NCBI GenBank assembly: GCA_030622125.1
Contig: JAUXGM010000087.1
Span: 1 to 8,755 of the forward strand
DNA length: 8,755 nt
Direction of reading: 5' to 3'
Origin: a bacterium
GTDB lineage: Bacteria; AUK180
In this document: positions 2,545-8,567 of the stretch, one piece after another
Numbering within the stretch: position 1 is the first letter of the stretch
How the letters are laid out: each line of letters begins with the position of its first letter
Notes under the pieces: generated by a model
Database searches by the model: none
The model's input: only the letters and a program-made list of their open reading frames with translations
What the model was told of the DNA's origin: nothing
Made by a program: the position numbers and the translations under genes

Positions 2545-5500
2545 TTAGAAAATTCCCAAATTTTCAAGTTTCAATTTTTCTTCATCAAGAAATCTCTGTG
2601 TACCGACATAAACTTTACCGGGATTCAATTTATAATTTGAAGTAATTTCCAAAATATCCTTTGTGTCTTCAACATTTCCCAACAGTGAAAAATCATTTTT
2701 CACCCATTTATTAAGATCACTCGGTTTTAGGATTATTTTTTTCAGATCAGCTGAAAAAATAGAACCCGTCTTAAATTGTATCGGTACATTTTGAACAAAA
2801 TGGTCTTCACCAATTTCTCTCATCAATCCGATATTAATAATTTTCAAATTATTACTTATCTTTACATTTTTCGGAATAGAACCCCCGAATGTTACAAGAA
2901 TATCAAATCCCATCATATCGGTAAAATCCCATTGTGTTATCCCCTTTTTGAGAAATACATAATCTCTACCATTTTCATTGGCATTGGTTTTTAATATAAT
3001 GTATTTATTGCTTTTAAGTATTTTTGCACGCTGTTCATTAATATCTTTTTCCTGTATAATAACAACATCATTTTCGTTCAGTTCAGGTAATTCTTGATAT
3101 ATTTCATCAAATATAAGCGATTCGCATGGAGTGCTCCCTACATAAATAAATTTAGAGCCATTTCGGGTTGCCTGTGTCGTCCAGTATCTTAAACTGCCGT
3201 GTATCTTTTCTATGTTTGTATTTACAAGAAATATCCGATTTGAGGAGATTATATCATCAAATTTCGCCGATGAAAAGCCGATAATTCTATCCTTTTCAAA
3301 GGTACCGATCTGATCGGTAATCTTTTTAAAATAATTGATTACGGAAAAATATTCTTCATTGGTAAAACCGCTTCCGATTGCAACTGCTATTTTCTTATTC
3401 TTGTTTTTAACCTCAATATATTCCCTTAGGGTATTTACATTATTTGAAAAATCCGTATAAAAATGTCTTAAATAGGAAGTGCCGTATTTTCCAAATGCGC
3501 ATAACAATCCATGATTGATCTCGGATTCGGCATTTCCCCTAACGGTTTTAAATTCATCTTCATTATAACCCAATTTTACTTCACATCCAAGATCACAATT
3601 ACCGCAAACAGAATCATAGTATGTAATGTCATGCGGACCGGGTTGAATTGTATCCGAAATGGAAACGATTGCACCAACAGGGCAAATTTCAGCACATTGC
3701 CCACACGAAATACATTCGGGTGAATCTAAAAATGATTTTTCCAATTGAGGAGATATCTCGGTTGGAAAACCTCTGTTTACATATCCGAGAGCACTTGCAC
3801 CTACAAGTTCTTCACAAACCCTTACACATTTTCCGCAAAGTATACATTTATTAATATTAAATTGAATATAAGGATGACTTTTATCCTCTTCCTTTTCAAT
3901 AAACTTACCGAAGAATCTGCTTTTATTTACCTGATACATTGTGGAATACTCTTTCAATTTACACTCTTTAATATCCTGACAACCGCATTGCCTACATCTT
4001 TTTGCTTCCGTGATCGCCTCTTCTTCAGAAAGAGTAAATTCAAAATCTTCAAAATTGTTTTTTCTTTCAATAGCAGATAATTTTTTTATTTTGATGGGAT
4101 GTTCTTTTTCAACATCTTCAAAATCCTTTTCGGTTATCTCTTTAAAATCCTTTTTTTGTATAAAAAATTCAAAAGGAACATCTCTTATCTCACCTTCTTC
4201 AAGATAATGTGCTATCGTTTCAGCTGCTTCACGACCATGAGCAACCGATTCAACAACCGTTGATGGTCCTAATACGCAATCTCCTCCGGAAAAGACACCG
4301 GGAACATTTGTTGAAAAAACATTTTCCTTTACTTCAACCCTGCCTCTTTTGTTATATTTTAATCCCATTGTATTCAATATGGATATGTCAATCTTTTGAC
4401 CGATTGCAGTAATAACCGTGTCAAATTCAACAAAATGTTCTGTCTCAGGCATTGCAATAGGTCTTCTTCTTCCCGATTGATCGGGTTCGCCCAATTTCAT
4501 ATTTATCAAATTCAAACCTTTGACAATATTATTATCATCTACAACTACCTTTGTCGGATTTTTCAAAAAATTAAATTGAACACCTTCTTCCTCTGCTTCT
4601 ACGATTTCTTCAACATTTGCAGGCATTGCTTCTTTATCTCTTCTGTAAATTATATGAACTTCTTTTGCACCTAATCTAATCAATGTTCTGGAAACATCCA
4701 TTGCCGTATTACCGCCGCCGACAACGGCACATTTTTCACCGAATTTGGGGATTTCTCCAAGAGAAACTTTTCTTAAAAATTCCACACTTTGATACGAACC
4801 TTTTGCAGTTTCGCCCGGAATTCCCATGGGCATATCTTTTTGAGCACCGATTCCGATAAAAAATGACTTATATCCATCTGCTTTTAATCCATCAAAAGTA
4901 ATGTCTTTGCCGAATTCGGCATTTGTTTTTATTTCAACGCCCATTTTTTCTAATATGCCGATCTCCTTATCCAACAGATCCTTTGGTAATCTATATGTGG
5001 GAATACCATACCTTAACATTCCACCGGGTTTGGGAAGTTTTTCGAATATAGTAATTTGATAACCTTTAATTCTCAAATAATAAGCTGCCGATAGACCTGC
5101 GGGACCTGAGCCTATTATAGCAACTTTAACATTCTTTTCTTTTTTAATCTTAGGAATATAAGGATTATCAGAGTTAATATCCATTTCCGCAACAAATCTT
5201 TTTAAAGGATTTATCAATATATGTTCTTCCGTATAATTTCTATAACATTCCTTACTACAAAATTGCGGGCATATCCTACCGATACTTACAGGCAAAGAAA
5301 TATTTTCCTTTATCAATTTCAGTGCTTTTCTATACTCCCCATTTGCAATATGGGCAATATAACCTTGAATATCTACATTGGCAGGACAAGCTCTGTTACA
5401 TGGAGCATAGCAATCGGCATAATGATTTGAAAGCATGAGTTCAAGAGCCATTGTCCGTGATTCTTGAATGTCTTTTGAATTTTCTATGATCTCCATTCCT

Positions 5501-5709
5501 TCTCCAACAAGAGTAGAACAGGCAGGCATAAATGCTTTTGCTCCCTTTACCTCAACAAGGCATGCCCTACATGAAGCATAATGTTCCAATCTCGCTTCTT
5601 CACATAGCGTTGGAATAAATATTCCGTTATCTTTTGCTACTTCAAGGATTGTTTTTCCGTTTTCAACTTCTAATTCCTTATTATTGAATTTTATTTTTAC
5701 CTTATTCAT
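2545..5709 (-). CDS. Multidomain FeS/FAD oxidoreductase: NuoG-like N-terminus, GltD/NfnL-like core, ferredoxin domain, degenerate molybdopterin-type C-terminus
   Basis: This 1054-residue soluble protein is the last gene of the operon. Domains in order: a plant-type [2Fe-2S] domain (C36, C47, C50, C64); a motif H96-x3-C100-x3-C104-x3-C108 leading into a GltD-type N-terminal FeS domain with C147, C151, C155; an FAD Rossmann fold (GSGPAG, 200-205) and a GGMLRYGIP stretch (229-237); an NAD(P) fold (GGGNTA, 331-336) with Arg356-Arg357 as in NADPH-binding GltD proteins; the second FAD motif GVFSGGD (471-477); a C572/C575/C577/C583 cluster; two [4Fe-4S] sites (C622, C625, C628, C632 and C666, C669, C672, C676); and a molybdopterin-oxidoreductase-type [4Fe-4S] site (C702, C705, C709, C737) followed by only about 315 residues. 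No H-cluster motif is present and no active-site Cys or Sec is recognisable. With the NuoE/NuoF-like partners I infer NADH/NADPH/ferredoxin electron transfer, perhaps bifurcating. The start is supported by AAAGGAG 6 nt upstream. Confidence 0.85.
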   Translation of the reverse strand: MNKVKIKFNNKELEVENGKTILEVAKDNGIFIPTLCEEARLEHYASCRACLVEVKGAKAFMPACSTLVGEGMEIIENSKDIQESRTMALELMLSNHYADCYAPCNRACPANVDIQGYIAHIANGEYRKALKLIKENISLPVSIGRICPQFCSKECYRNYTEEHILINPLKRFVAEMDINSDNPYIPKIKKEKNVKVAIIGSGPAGLSAAYYLRIKGYQITIFEKLPKPGGMLRYGIPTYRLPKDLLDKEIGILEKMGVEIKTNAEFGKDITFDGLKADGYKSFFIGIGAQKDMPMGIPGETAKGSYQSVEFLRKVSLGEIPKFGEKCAVVGGGNTAMDVSRTLIRLGAKEVHIIYRRDKEAMPANVEEIVEAEEEGVQFNFLKNPTKVVVDDNNIVKGLNLINMKLGEPDQSGRRRPIAMPETEHFVEFDTVITAIGQKIDISILNTMGLKYNKRGRVEVKENVFSTNVPGVFSGGDCVLGPSTVVESVAHGREAAETIAHYLEEGEIRDVPFEFFIQKKDFKEITEKDFEDVEKEHPIKIKKLSAIERKNNFEDFEFTLSEEEAITEAKRCRQCGCQDIKECKLKEYSTMYQVNKSRFFGKFIEKEEDKSHPYIQFNINKCILCGKCVRVCEELVGASALGYVNRGFPTEISPQLEKSFLDSPECISCGQCAEICPVGAIVSISDTIQPGPHDITYYDSVCGNCDLGCEVKLGYNEDEFKTVRGNAESEINHGLLCAFGKYGTSYLRHFYTDFSNNVNTLREYIEVKNKNKKIAVAIGSGFTNEEYFSVINYFKKITDQIGTFEKDRIIGFSSAKFDDIISSNRIFLVNTNIEKIHGSLRYWTTQATRNGSKFIYVGSTPCESLIFDEIYQELPELNENDVVIIQEKDINEQRAKILKSNKYIILKTNANENGRDYVFLKKGITQWDFTDMMGFDILVTFGGSIPKNVKISNNLKIINIGLMREIGEDHFVQNVPIQFKTGSIFSADLKKIILKPSDLNKWVKNDFSLLGNVEDTKDILEITSNYKLNPGKVYVGTQRFLDEEKLKLENLGIF

Positions 5710-5712
5710 TAT

Positions 5713-7482
5713 TTACTCCTTTATCACTGCATCAAATCTACATGCCGTATAACATTTTCCACATTTTATACAGATACTTTGATCAATAATATGAGTTTTT
5801 TTGACCTCCCCGGAGATAGCATCAACCGGGCAATTTCTTGCACATAGTGTACAACCGGTACATTTGTCGGGATCAATTCTGAATTCAATCAGAGCTTTAC
5901 AAACACCGGCTGGACATTTTTTATTCTTAATGTGAGCAATATATTCATCTCTAAAATATTTTAAACTTGTTAAGACAGGATTAGGTGCTGTTTGACCGAG
6001 TCCACACAATGAACCGTTCTTTACCTGATAAGCAAGGGCTTCAAGTTCATCTAAATCTTTCATTTCACCCTTACCCTTAGTTATTCTATCAAGTATTTCA
6101 TACATTCTTCTGTTTCCTATACGGCAAAATGTGCATTTACCACAGGATTCCTCAACAACAAAATCAAGGAAAAATTTCGCTACATCCACCATACAGGAAT
6201 CCTCATCCATTACGACCATTCCACCTGAGCCCATAATCGCACCGGTGTTATTCAATGAATCATAATCAACGGGAGTATCAAGTAATGATGCAGGAAGACA
6301 ACCCCCTGAGGGTCCACCGATCTGGACTGCTTTAAATTTTTTATCATTTATTATACCGCCTCCGACATCAAAGATAACCTCTCTTAATGTTATTCCCATA
6401 GGTACTTCTACGGTACCGGAATTTTTTATCTTGCCTGTTAAAGCAAAAACCTTTGTTCCTTTGCTTTTCTCTGTTCCGATACTCGCATATTTATCTCCAC
6501 CATTAACAATGATCCATGGCACATTTGCAAATGTTTCAACATTGTTTATATTTGTGGGCTTTTTCCACAGACCACTATTTGCCGGAAAAGGCGGTTTTAA
6601 TGTAGGCATACCACGATTACCTTCAATTGAACGCATCAATGCCGTCTCTTCACCGCATACAAATGCTCCCGCACCCTTTTTCAAACTTATATCAAAAGAA
6701 AATCCGGAATTAAGAATATTTTCTCCTAAAAATTCCTCTTCCTTAGCTTGTGCAATTGCTTTTTCCAATCGTATTATTGCAAGGGGGTATTCTGCTCTAA
6801 CATATATGTAGCCTTGATTTGCACCAATTGCATATCCGGCAATCGTCATACCTTCAAGGACTGAATGCGGATCACCCTCAAGAACACTTCTATCCATAAA
6901 TGCCCCGGGATCACCTTCATCTGCATTACAGATAATATATTTCATATCACTTTTTGAACCACCGGCAAATTTCCATTTGAGACCTGTCGGAAAACCGGCT
7001 CCGCCTCTGCCCCTCAATCCTGATTTTAAAATCTCTTCAATAACCCAATCTTTACCCTTTTCAAAGGACTTTTTTATCCCTTTATAGCCATTTTTTTCAA
7101 TGTATTCAACGATTGATTCAGGATTGATTATTCCGCTATTTCTCAGGACGATCTTTATCTGTTTTTTATGATAATGGTCATTTTCATATTTTTCGTCTCC
7201 CGGTATATAGACTACCAATTCCTCTGCAATCTCATTGTTTTTTATTTTTTGTGAAAGGAATTTTGACTTTTTGCCGTCTATATCACCATAAATAATGGAA
7301 TGTCCGTCATTATATTCAATTTCAACGAGAGGCTCTCTAAAACACATACCGATACATCCGGTTCTCTCAACAACAATATTGCTGTCGGCAAGATCTTCTT
7401 TTAGATTATCAAAAACAACCTGAGCACCTGCTGCAAGACCACAGGAAGCCATTCCAATCTTTACTCTTTTTATATTAGTCAT
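5713..7482 (-). CDS. nuoF: NuoF/HydB-like NADH-binding FMN iron-sulfur subunit
   Basis: This flavoprotein subunit oxidises or forms NADH. Numbering is from the chosen ATG (589 residues). A thioredoxin-like [2Fe-2S] domain occupies about 1-90 with C14, C43 and C47. The FMN/NADH core shows the glycine-rich GLRGRGGAGFPTGLKW (155-170), NADEGDPGAF (186-195) and GAGAFVCGEETA (270-281). An N3-type [4Fe-4S] site uses C447, C450, C453 and C493. A C-terminal ferredoxin domain adds two [4Fe-4S] clusters (C541/544/547/551 and C571/574/577/581), preceded by CPAGVC (523-528). This arrangement matches HydB of bifurcating [FeFe] hydrogenases and related NAD-dependent complexes rather than plain respiratory NuoF. 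A TTG 6 bp upstream also opens the frame, but AAAGAGG (7489-7495) lies 6 nt before the ATG, so ATG 7482 is preferred. It overlaps the preceding gene by 8 bp. The first cysteine expected in the N-terminal cluster is Ile9 here. Confidence 0.92.
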   Translation of the reverse strand: MTNIKRVKIGMASCGLAAGAQVVFDNLKEDLADSNIVVERTGCIGMCFREPLVEIEYNDGHSIIYGDIDGKKSKFLSQKIKNNEIAEELVVYIPGDEKYENDHYHKKQIKIVLRNSGIINPESIVEYIEKNGYKGIKKSFEKGKDWVIEEILKSGLRGRGGAGFPTGLKWKFAGGSKSDMKYIICNADEGDPGAFMDRSVLEGDPHSVLEGMTIAGYAIGANQGYIYVRAEYPLAIIRLEKAIAQAKEEEFLGENILNSGFSFDISLKKGAGAFVCGEETALMRSIEGNRGMPTLKPPFPANSGLWKKPTNINNVETFANVPWIIVNGGDKYASIGTEKSKGTKVFALTGKIKNSGTVEVPMGITLREVIFDVGGGIINDKKFKAVQIGGPSGGCLPASLLDTPVDYDSLNNTGAIMGSGGMVVMDEDSCMVDVAKFFLDFVVEESCGKCTFCRIGNRRMYEILDRITKGKGEMKDLDELEALAYQVKNGSLCGLGQTAPNPVLTSLKYFRDEYIAHIKNKKCPAGVCKALIEFRIDPDKCTGCTLCARNCPVDAISGEVKKTHIIDQSICIKCGKCYTACRFDAVIKE

Positions 7483-7948
7483 TTTCAACCTCTTTAAATT
7501 TTTTCAACACATTTTTAACCTTTGTGCTGTCAAGTTTTCCATAGACCCTGTCATCTATCATAATAACAGGTGCAAGTGAACAGCAGCCCAGGCAAGCAAC
7601 CTGTTCAAGTGTATAATATCTATCTTCTGTTGTTTCCCCTACTTCAATATTTAGTATCTCTTTGACGGTATCCATAATAGAATCACCATTATTAACAAAA
7701 CATGCCGTTCCATGACATACACGGATAATATGCTTCCCAACCGGTTCTGTTCTAAATTGGGCATAAAATGTAATGACCCCATTGATTCGAGGGACAGGAA
7801 TATGAAATTCTTTGGAAAGTATCTCAATACTTTCCTTCGGGATATATTTATATTTTTCCTGAATCTCCTGCAATGCGGGGATAAGAGCACCTACCTCCTC
7901 CTTATACTTTTTAACAATTGGCTTTATTCCTTCTTCTATTTTATTCAT
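7475..7948 (-). CDS. nuoE: NuoE/HydC-like [2Fe-2S] subunit
   Basis: This 157-residue subunit has the usual length of the 24-kDa (NuoE/HydC) family: an N-terminal helical bundle with LIPALQEIQEKY (22-33), then a thioredoxin-like fold carrying one [2Fe-2S] cluster. Ligands are C78 and C83 (CHGTAC) and C119 and C123 (CLGCC), all present. Typical family segments such as INGVITFYAQF (55-65) are intact. It works with the NuoF-like subunit encoded next, which carries FMN and binds NADH. Its Shine-Dalgarno GGAG (7955-7958) lies within the last two codons of ndk, 6 nt from the ATG, and only 3 bp separate the genes, pointing to coupled translation. Its stop codon overlaps the start of the NuoF-like gene. 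Confidence 0.93.
   Translation of the reverse strand: MNKIEEGIKPIVKKYKEEVGALIPALQEIQEKYKYIPKESIEILSKEFHIPVPRINGVITFYAQFRTEPVGKHIIRVCHGTACFVNNGDSIMDTVKEILNIEVGETTEDRYYTLEQVACLGCCSLAPVIMIDDRVYGKLDSTKVKNVLKKFKEVEND
7489..7495 (-). promoter_or_regulatory. Shine-Dalgarno deciding the NuoF-like start
   Basis: AAAGAGG on the minus strand is 6 nt from ATG 7482, while the in-frame TTG at 7488 would abut it with no spacer. This selects the ATG and shortens the protein by two residues. The site lies inside the last codons of the NuoE-like gene. Confidence 0.7.
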
Positions 7949-8405: not shown

Positions 8406-8433
8406 ATTATATCTTTTTAAAATTTAATTTCAA
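8406..8433 (-). promoter_or_regulatory. Sigma-70-type promoter for the ndk-redox operon
   Basis: On the minus strand, TTGAAA (8433-8428) and TATAAT (8411-8406) are 16 bp apart. Transcription would start near 8399, giving a leader of about 25 nt before ATG 8374. It is the only good promoter upstream of ndk, and junctions downstream leave no room for others, so all four genes are probably transcribed from it. Confidence 0.65.
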
Positions 8434-8474: not shown

Positions 8475-8509
8475 AAAAATAGGTCAAAAGCGACGAAGTC
8501 ATTAAAAAA

Positions 8510-8547
8510 GTTCAAGGTTCAAAAGTTCAAAGGTTCAAGGTTAAAAG
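8510..8547. repeat. Tandem GTTCAA repeats, 7-8-bp period
   Basis: GTTCAA recurs at 8510, 8517, 8525 and 8533, with a variant GTTAAA at 8540, separated by one or two A or G bases. The steps are 7, 8, 8 and 7 bp. No coding frame explains the pattern. It begins the repeat-rich right flank. Confidence 0.7.
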
Positions 8548-8567
8548 AGAATACACTGAAAACGAGC

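Follow-up and report, generated by a model that had tools for sequence, protein, structure and literature searches.

A Predicted Stn-Type Electron-Bifurcating Transhydrogenase in the Genome of an AUK180 Bacterium

Introduction

The window analysed here, a stretch of 8755 nucleotides (contig JAUXGM010000087.1) from a bacterium of the AUK180 lineage, carries on its minus strand (7948..2545) a NuoE-like gene, a HydB-like gene and a gene for a GltD/NuoG hybrid, as was originally predicted and as the open reading frames and Pfam domains confirm. This raises the question of what reaction such a complex would catalyse. A hydrogenase was not expected from the sequence, and indeed the H-cluster domain (PF02906) is absent from the window, the only H-cluster protein of the genome being located on another contig (C69). 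The original prediction considered the complex uncharacterised, which does not hold, as a fusion of this type with these partners is already known as StnABC (PMC7483475, PMC10482914) and as Nfn-Bfu (PMC9304861). StnABC was purified from Sporomusa ovata in 2020, the Nfn-Bfu enzyme of Thermococcus sibiricus was shown to be active in 2022 (PMC9304861), and cryo-EM structures exist for the enzymes of S. ovata (8OH5/8OH9; PMC7483475, PMC10482914), T. sibiricus (9N5U/9N5V) and Caldicellulosiruptor saccharolyticus (9BOV/9BP5). We conclude that the operon very probably encodes an electron-bifurcating transhydrogenase of the Stn type (Stn / Nfn-Bfu / NfnABC), the activity itself being predicted, and the genes are named accordingly.

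Results and Discussion

Gene organization

The features of the locus are as follows:
7475..7948, minus strand: stnA, NuoE/HydC-like subunit, 157 aa (PF01257, E = 6.9e-51), [2Fe-2S] ligands C78, C83, C119, C123
5713..7482, minus strand: stnB, HydB/NuoF-like subunit with FMN/NADH site, open frame from TTG 7488
2545..5709, minus strand: stnC, [2Fe-2S] domain, GltD/NfnB-like FAD/NADPH module, NuoG-like clusters and shortened FdhF-like tail, 1054 aa
7952..8374, minus strand: ndk, encoding nucleoside diphosphate kinase and ending 3 bases before stnA, open frame from TTG 8398
8406..8433, minus strand: promoter-like TTGAAA-16-TATAAT before ndk, 11/12 positions, a consensus match only

The three frames, 7948..7475(-) with 157 aa, 7488..5713(-) with 591 aa and 5709..2545(-) with 1054 aa, are intact and contain no internal stops, and together with the same reading in four same-family relatives this rules out a frameshift or a pseudogene. 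For stnB, ATG 7482 is a more likely start than TTG 7488, judging from the sequence, and from this start the gene overlaps the end of stnA by 8 bases, while ndk and stnA, as well as stnB and stnC, are separated by 3 bases each. The ATG of ndk (8374) is preceded by a ribosome-binding-like AGGAG, and the promoter-like site just 5' of ndk is the best such match on the minus strand; ndk is likely the first gene of the operon, and ndk, stnA, stnB and stnC would be co-transcribed. The same order is present in two same-family relatives (L116 and L118), in a third relative (L117) stnA is preceded by a gene on the opposite strand, and the adjacency of stnB and stnC is kept in the same-family relatives.

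Rfam and tRNA searches of the window gave zero matches, and the repeat search found weak AT-rich pairs only, likely due to chance. Short imperfect TTCAAGG/TTCAAAG repeats lie upstream of ndk (8500-8560), with no Rfam match, and the plus strand carries a sodium:solute symporter at 295-1737, whose closest NCBIfam model is PutP, with a score under the cut-off of that model.

Identity of the complex

When StnC was compared with PDB sequences by phmmer, the best matches were 9bov_A (E = 1.8e-218), 9n5u_A (6.7e-200) and 8oh5_C (4.7e-186), and after these three Stn/NfnABC chains the next matches were NfnB-like chains that cover the GltD part alone. The same three complexes were on top for StnB (E about 1e-251), and the best match of StnA was 9n5u_C of T. 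sibiricus. A single-chain AlphaFold2 model of StnC built with 35 sequences (mean pLDDT 85.6, pTM 0.80) led in Foldseek to entries titled Nfn-ABC of C. saccharolyticus, NfnABC of T. sibiricus and StnABC of S. ovata. Between 911 and 1005 residues were aligned with these chains (Z 48.5-53.1, rmsd 4.3-4.6; Z of 53.1 for 9bov_A, 51.3 for 8oh5_C and 50.5 for 9n5v_A), whereas Pyrococcus furiosus NfnI was matched over the GltD module only (Z 42.5). For S. ovata and C. saccharolyticus the alignments extend to residue 1024, which means that the match is carried through the tail, where the sequence alignment had faded. A tree built with 76 StnC relatives places the StnC of the window between StnC of S. 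ovata and NfnA of T. sibiricus, and the branch joining it to the T. sibiricus enzyme has moderate support (SH-aLRT 82).

The closest match of StnC by both sequence and fold (1005 residues for the latter) is thus C. saccharolyticus NfnABC, known here from PDB titles only, with a large subunit of 1178 aa and a longer tail. The nearest assayed enzyme in the tree is NfnABC of T. sibiricus, which is archaeal and has a large subunit of 963 aa, in which the cysteines for one NuoG-like [4Fe-4S] cluster, retained in the window, are missing. S. ovata StnABC shares with the window the three subunits, the domain order of the large subunit, the FeS ligands, K170 and the FAD arginine, the HydBC-like core, and a genome in which no separate NfnAB is found; it differs in the length of StnC (1172 aa against 1054 aa) at 34% identity in the structural alignment. 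In comparison with HydABC, StnA and StnB are the counterparts of HydC and HydB, but a GltD-NuoG fusion stands in the place of HydA with its H-cluster. With NfnAB the complex has in common the GltD-like FAD/NADPH module and the overall reaction, but it differs in the site of bifurcation, in a lysine instead of a glutamate at the FAD-proximal cluster and in having no NfnA homologue; in the window no NfnA-type subunit (second FAD) accompanies the GltD-like protein, the partners being NuoE- and HydB-like. The expectation of a transhydrogenase-like bifurcating enzyme with an architecture unlike that of Nfn matches Stn.

Domains and residues of StnC

StnC is a fusion of a NuoG-like [2Fe-2S] domain, a GltD/NfnB-like module and a NuoG/FdhF-like part, co-encoded with NuoE-like StnA and HydB-like StnB, and Pfam recognises in it Fer2_4, Fer4_20, Pyr_redox_2, Fer4_Nqo3 and Molybdop_Fe4S4. 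Its parts are the following:
Residues 1-112 (5374..5709, minus strand): NuoG-like [2Fe-2S] domain with C36, C47, C50 and C64, and the motif H96/C100/C104/C108
Residues 99-505 (4195..5415, minus strand): GltD/NfnB-like module with C147/C151/C155/K170, FAD arginine R233 and the NADPH-site pair R356-R357
Residues 572-740 (3490..3996, minus strand): motif C572/C575/C577/C583, dicluster C622-C676 and Mop Fe4S4-type cluster C702, C705, C709, C737
Residues 741-1054 (2545..3489, minus strand): shortened FdhF-like tail, with low model confidence past residue 1019

All four nucleotide-binding motifs originally read from the sequence were found in StnC, namely GSGPAG (200-205), GGGNTA (331-336), RR356-357 and SGGD (474-477). 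Compared with S. ovata StnC (8oh5_C), 26 of 26 cluster cysteines, His96 and Lys170 are identical, R233 corresponds to R239, and the ligands for six [4Fe-4S] clusters and one [2Fe-2S] cluster are kept. K170 is invariant across 35 aligned sequences, in agreement with the strict conservation reported for this lysine at the FAD-proximal cluster, and in S. ovata mutations of K170 and R239 lower or abolish activity (PMC7483475, PMC10482914). Against the Stn identity one could count the moderate branch support, the tail, which is shorter than that of S. ovata, and the isoleucine at the position of S. ovata Cys114. This position is variable, as Ile or Val is found at it in several relatives, and in S. 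ovata Cys114 is auxiliary, that is, helpful but dispensable (PMC7483475, PMC10482914).

The bifurcating core

StnA contains the 2Fe-2S_thioredx domain and all [2Fe-2S] ligands of BfuC. StnB (Complex1_51K, NADH_4Fe-4S and two Fer4 domains) is a HydB-like relative of NuoF with N- and C-terminal cluster extensions; its ligands are C16/C45/C49 at the N-terminus, C449/C452/C455/C495 for B1 and C432/T470/H519/C525/C530 for B2 (or a Zn site), and its ferredoxin-like C-terminal domain (C543-C583) is intact. The ligands of the Bfu core in StnA and StnB are invariant or nearly so across 51-55 aligned rows, including StnB C432, H519, C525 and C530 (55 rows). Of 1558 BfuB sequences, all but 8 have the B2 histidine, here H519, and homologues without bifurcation do not have it, while threonine at the fifth B2 position, here T470, is the commoner variant (PMC9304861).

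Proposed mechanism and alternative readings

In S. ovata, the oxidation of NADPH by StnABC is coupled to the reduction of NAD+ and ferredoxin, and the enzyme also works in reverse; electrons leave the FAD of StnC and pass over C7, C6, C5, C4 and C3 before they reach the StnB FMN (PMC7483475, PMC10482914). The T. sibiricus enzyme reduces ferredoxin with NADPH provided that NAD+ is present (PMC9304861). Because of the identity of the ligands and the position between these two enzymes in the tree, the activities, the electron path and the need for the StnA cluster may be carried over to the window by analogy. Hydride would be exchanged between NADPH and the GltD-like FAD of StnC, and single electrons would travel along the StnC FeS chain to the FMN in StnB. 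This FMN, together with the StnA [2Fe-2S] cluster and a cluster of StnB close by, would split or merge them. One branch would lead to NAD(H) at the FMN and the other, by way of the StnB C-terminal clusters, to ferredoxin, with movement of StnA gating the two. Activity and direction in this organism are extrapolated; the direction from NADH and reduced ferredoxin to NADPH is the most likely one in the cell. A complex in which the FAD lies too far from the clusters, a possible objection to such a scheme, is not what the solved homologue shows; there, the clusters of each protomer are 9-18 Å apart and a path from FAD to FMN is present.

The arrangement originally predicted, with two flavin sites (NADH at the HydB-type FMN and NADPH at the GltD-type FAD), FeS clusters linking them and access for ferredoxin, stands. 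In S. ovata the FAD of StnC was judged to be a non-bifurcating, plain NADPH site and bifurcation was placed at the FMN of StnB with StnA (PMC7483475, PMC10482914). That the GltD-like FAD would itself split electrons, in the manner of NfnAB, was the proposal of the first Stn paper, and the NfnB-like FAD arginine is kept as R233; in the S. ovata structure, however, this arginine is about 6 Å from the N5 of FAD, and the window has the lysine of S. ovata StnC at the FAD-proximal cluster instead of the glutamate of NfnB. Moreover, deletion of the StnA cluster in S. ovata abolishes bifurcation, for which the cluster is needed, and leaves the NADPH:viologen activity, for which it is dispensable (PMC7483475, PMC10482914), so that we regard a bifurcating FAD as very unlikely. 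Even less credible is a non-bifurcating NADPH oxidoreductase uncoupled from ferredoxin, similar to the sulfur reductase Nso: the Nso of Thermococcus litoralis has the same domain layout and is named an NADPH-dependent sulfur/oxygen oxidoreductase, but StnB retains an intact ferredoxin-like domain at its C-terminus as well as the B2 histidine, and according to the Stn authors Nso itself may function as a transhydrogenase.

The tail deserves separate consideration, as it is shortened and diverged, and in residues 741-1054 no match to the Pfam Molybdopterin domain was found. In S. ovata, the electron path bypasses the FdhF-like domain and its clusters C1 and C2, yet functional assembly requires this domain (PMC7483475, PMC10482914), and the role of these two clusters is unsettled. 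It is nevertheless highly improbable that the complex is linked through its tail to an unknown additional partner or substrate, as the model follows its S. ovata and C. saccharolyticus counterparts to residue 1024 and the tail is wholly absent from several relatives encoded behind stnB. A functional Stn variant whose tail has its own role, as in a different oligomer or with an extra electron partner, is also improbable, if slightly less so. The Stn-type transhydrogenase with bifurcation at the FMN of StnB is thus the reading we prefer. Compact relatives of StnC of about 676-708 aa (L032, L039, L051, L063 and further short rows) end past the dicluster, without the Mop Fe4S4 cluster and the FdhF-like tail; in the four named loci the compact stnC directly follows stnB, and downstream no gene on the same strand encodes a separate tail. 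Since deletion of the FdhF-like domain in S. ovata blocks a functional complex, such tail-less proteins are natural tests of the role of the tail.

Genomic setting and distribution

The host genome (2.08 Mb in 192 contigs, 96% complete) contains one stnC, an RnfC above the family cut-off, three POR matches and one [FeFe] hydrogenase; in this draft assembly PntB was not found, and there was no NfnB-like protein besides a PreT-like one. The latter, a GltD-like protein on contig C34, was rejected as NfnB, since, from the sequence, a gene of the dihydropyrimidine dehydrogenase type lies next to it and the pair is read as PreT-PreA. All four same-family relatives carry StnC, with 56-84% identity. 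Given RnfC, POR, the lack of a PntB or NfnB candidate in the assembly and the occurrence of StnC in the same family, it is plausible that Stn is a main link among NADH, ferredoxin and NADPH in the host.

The [FeFe] hydrogenase on contig C69 (L101; L119:5009-8533) follows a gene for a NuoE-NuoF fusion (about 581 aa), which ends without a ferredoxin-like domain at its C-terminus and has no B2 histidine, suggesting a non-bifurcating, NADH-linked enzyme.

The alignment scan of representative genomes with the StnC profile gave at least 591 relatives, some of which lack StnA and StnB as neighbours, while the published distribution list names Firmicutes, Proteobacteria, Synergistetes and Euryarchaeota. 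StnC-like fusions also occur in Vibrio/Photobacterium, Cellulomonas-type actinobacteria and others (L059, L088, L061-L071), with no stnA or stnB neighbours in the fetched stretch.

Conclusions

This kind of enzyme is already known and widespread, and what is modestly new is the host lineage, the shortened FdhF-like tail and the order ndk-stnABC, which is common to some relatives. A small and little-sampled bacterial lineage carries the predicted Stn route to NADPH, apparently without NfnAB or PntAB, and this pattern fits the near mutual exclusion of Stn and Nfn reported in acetogens. The added sequences help to sort the essential from the optional parts of StnC, such as Cys114 and the FdhF-like tail.
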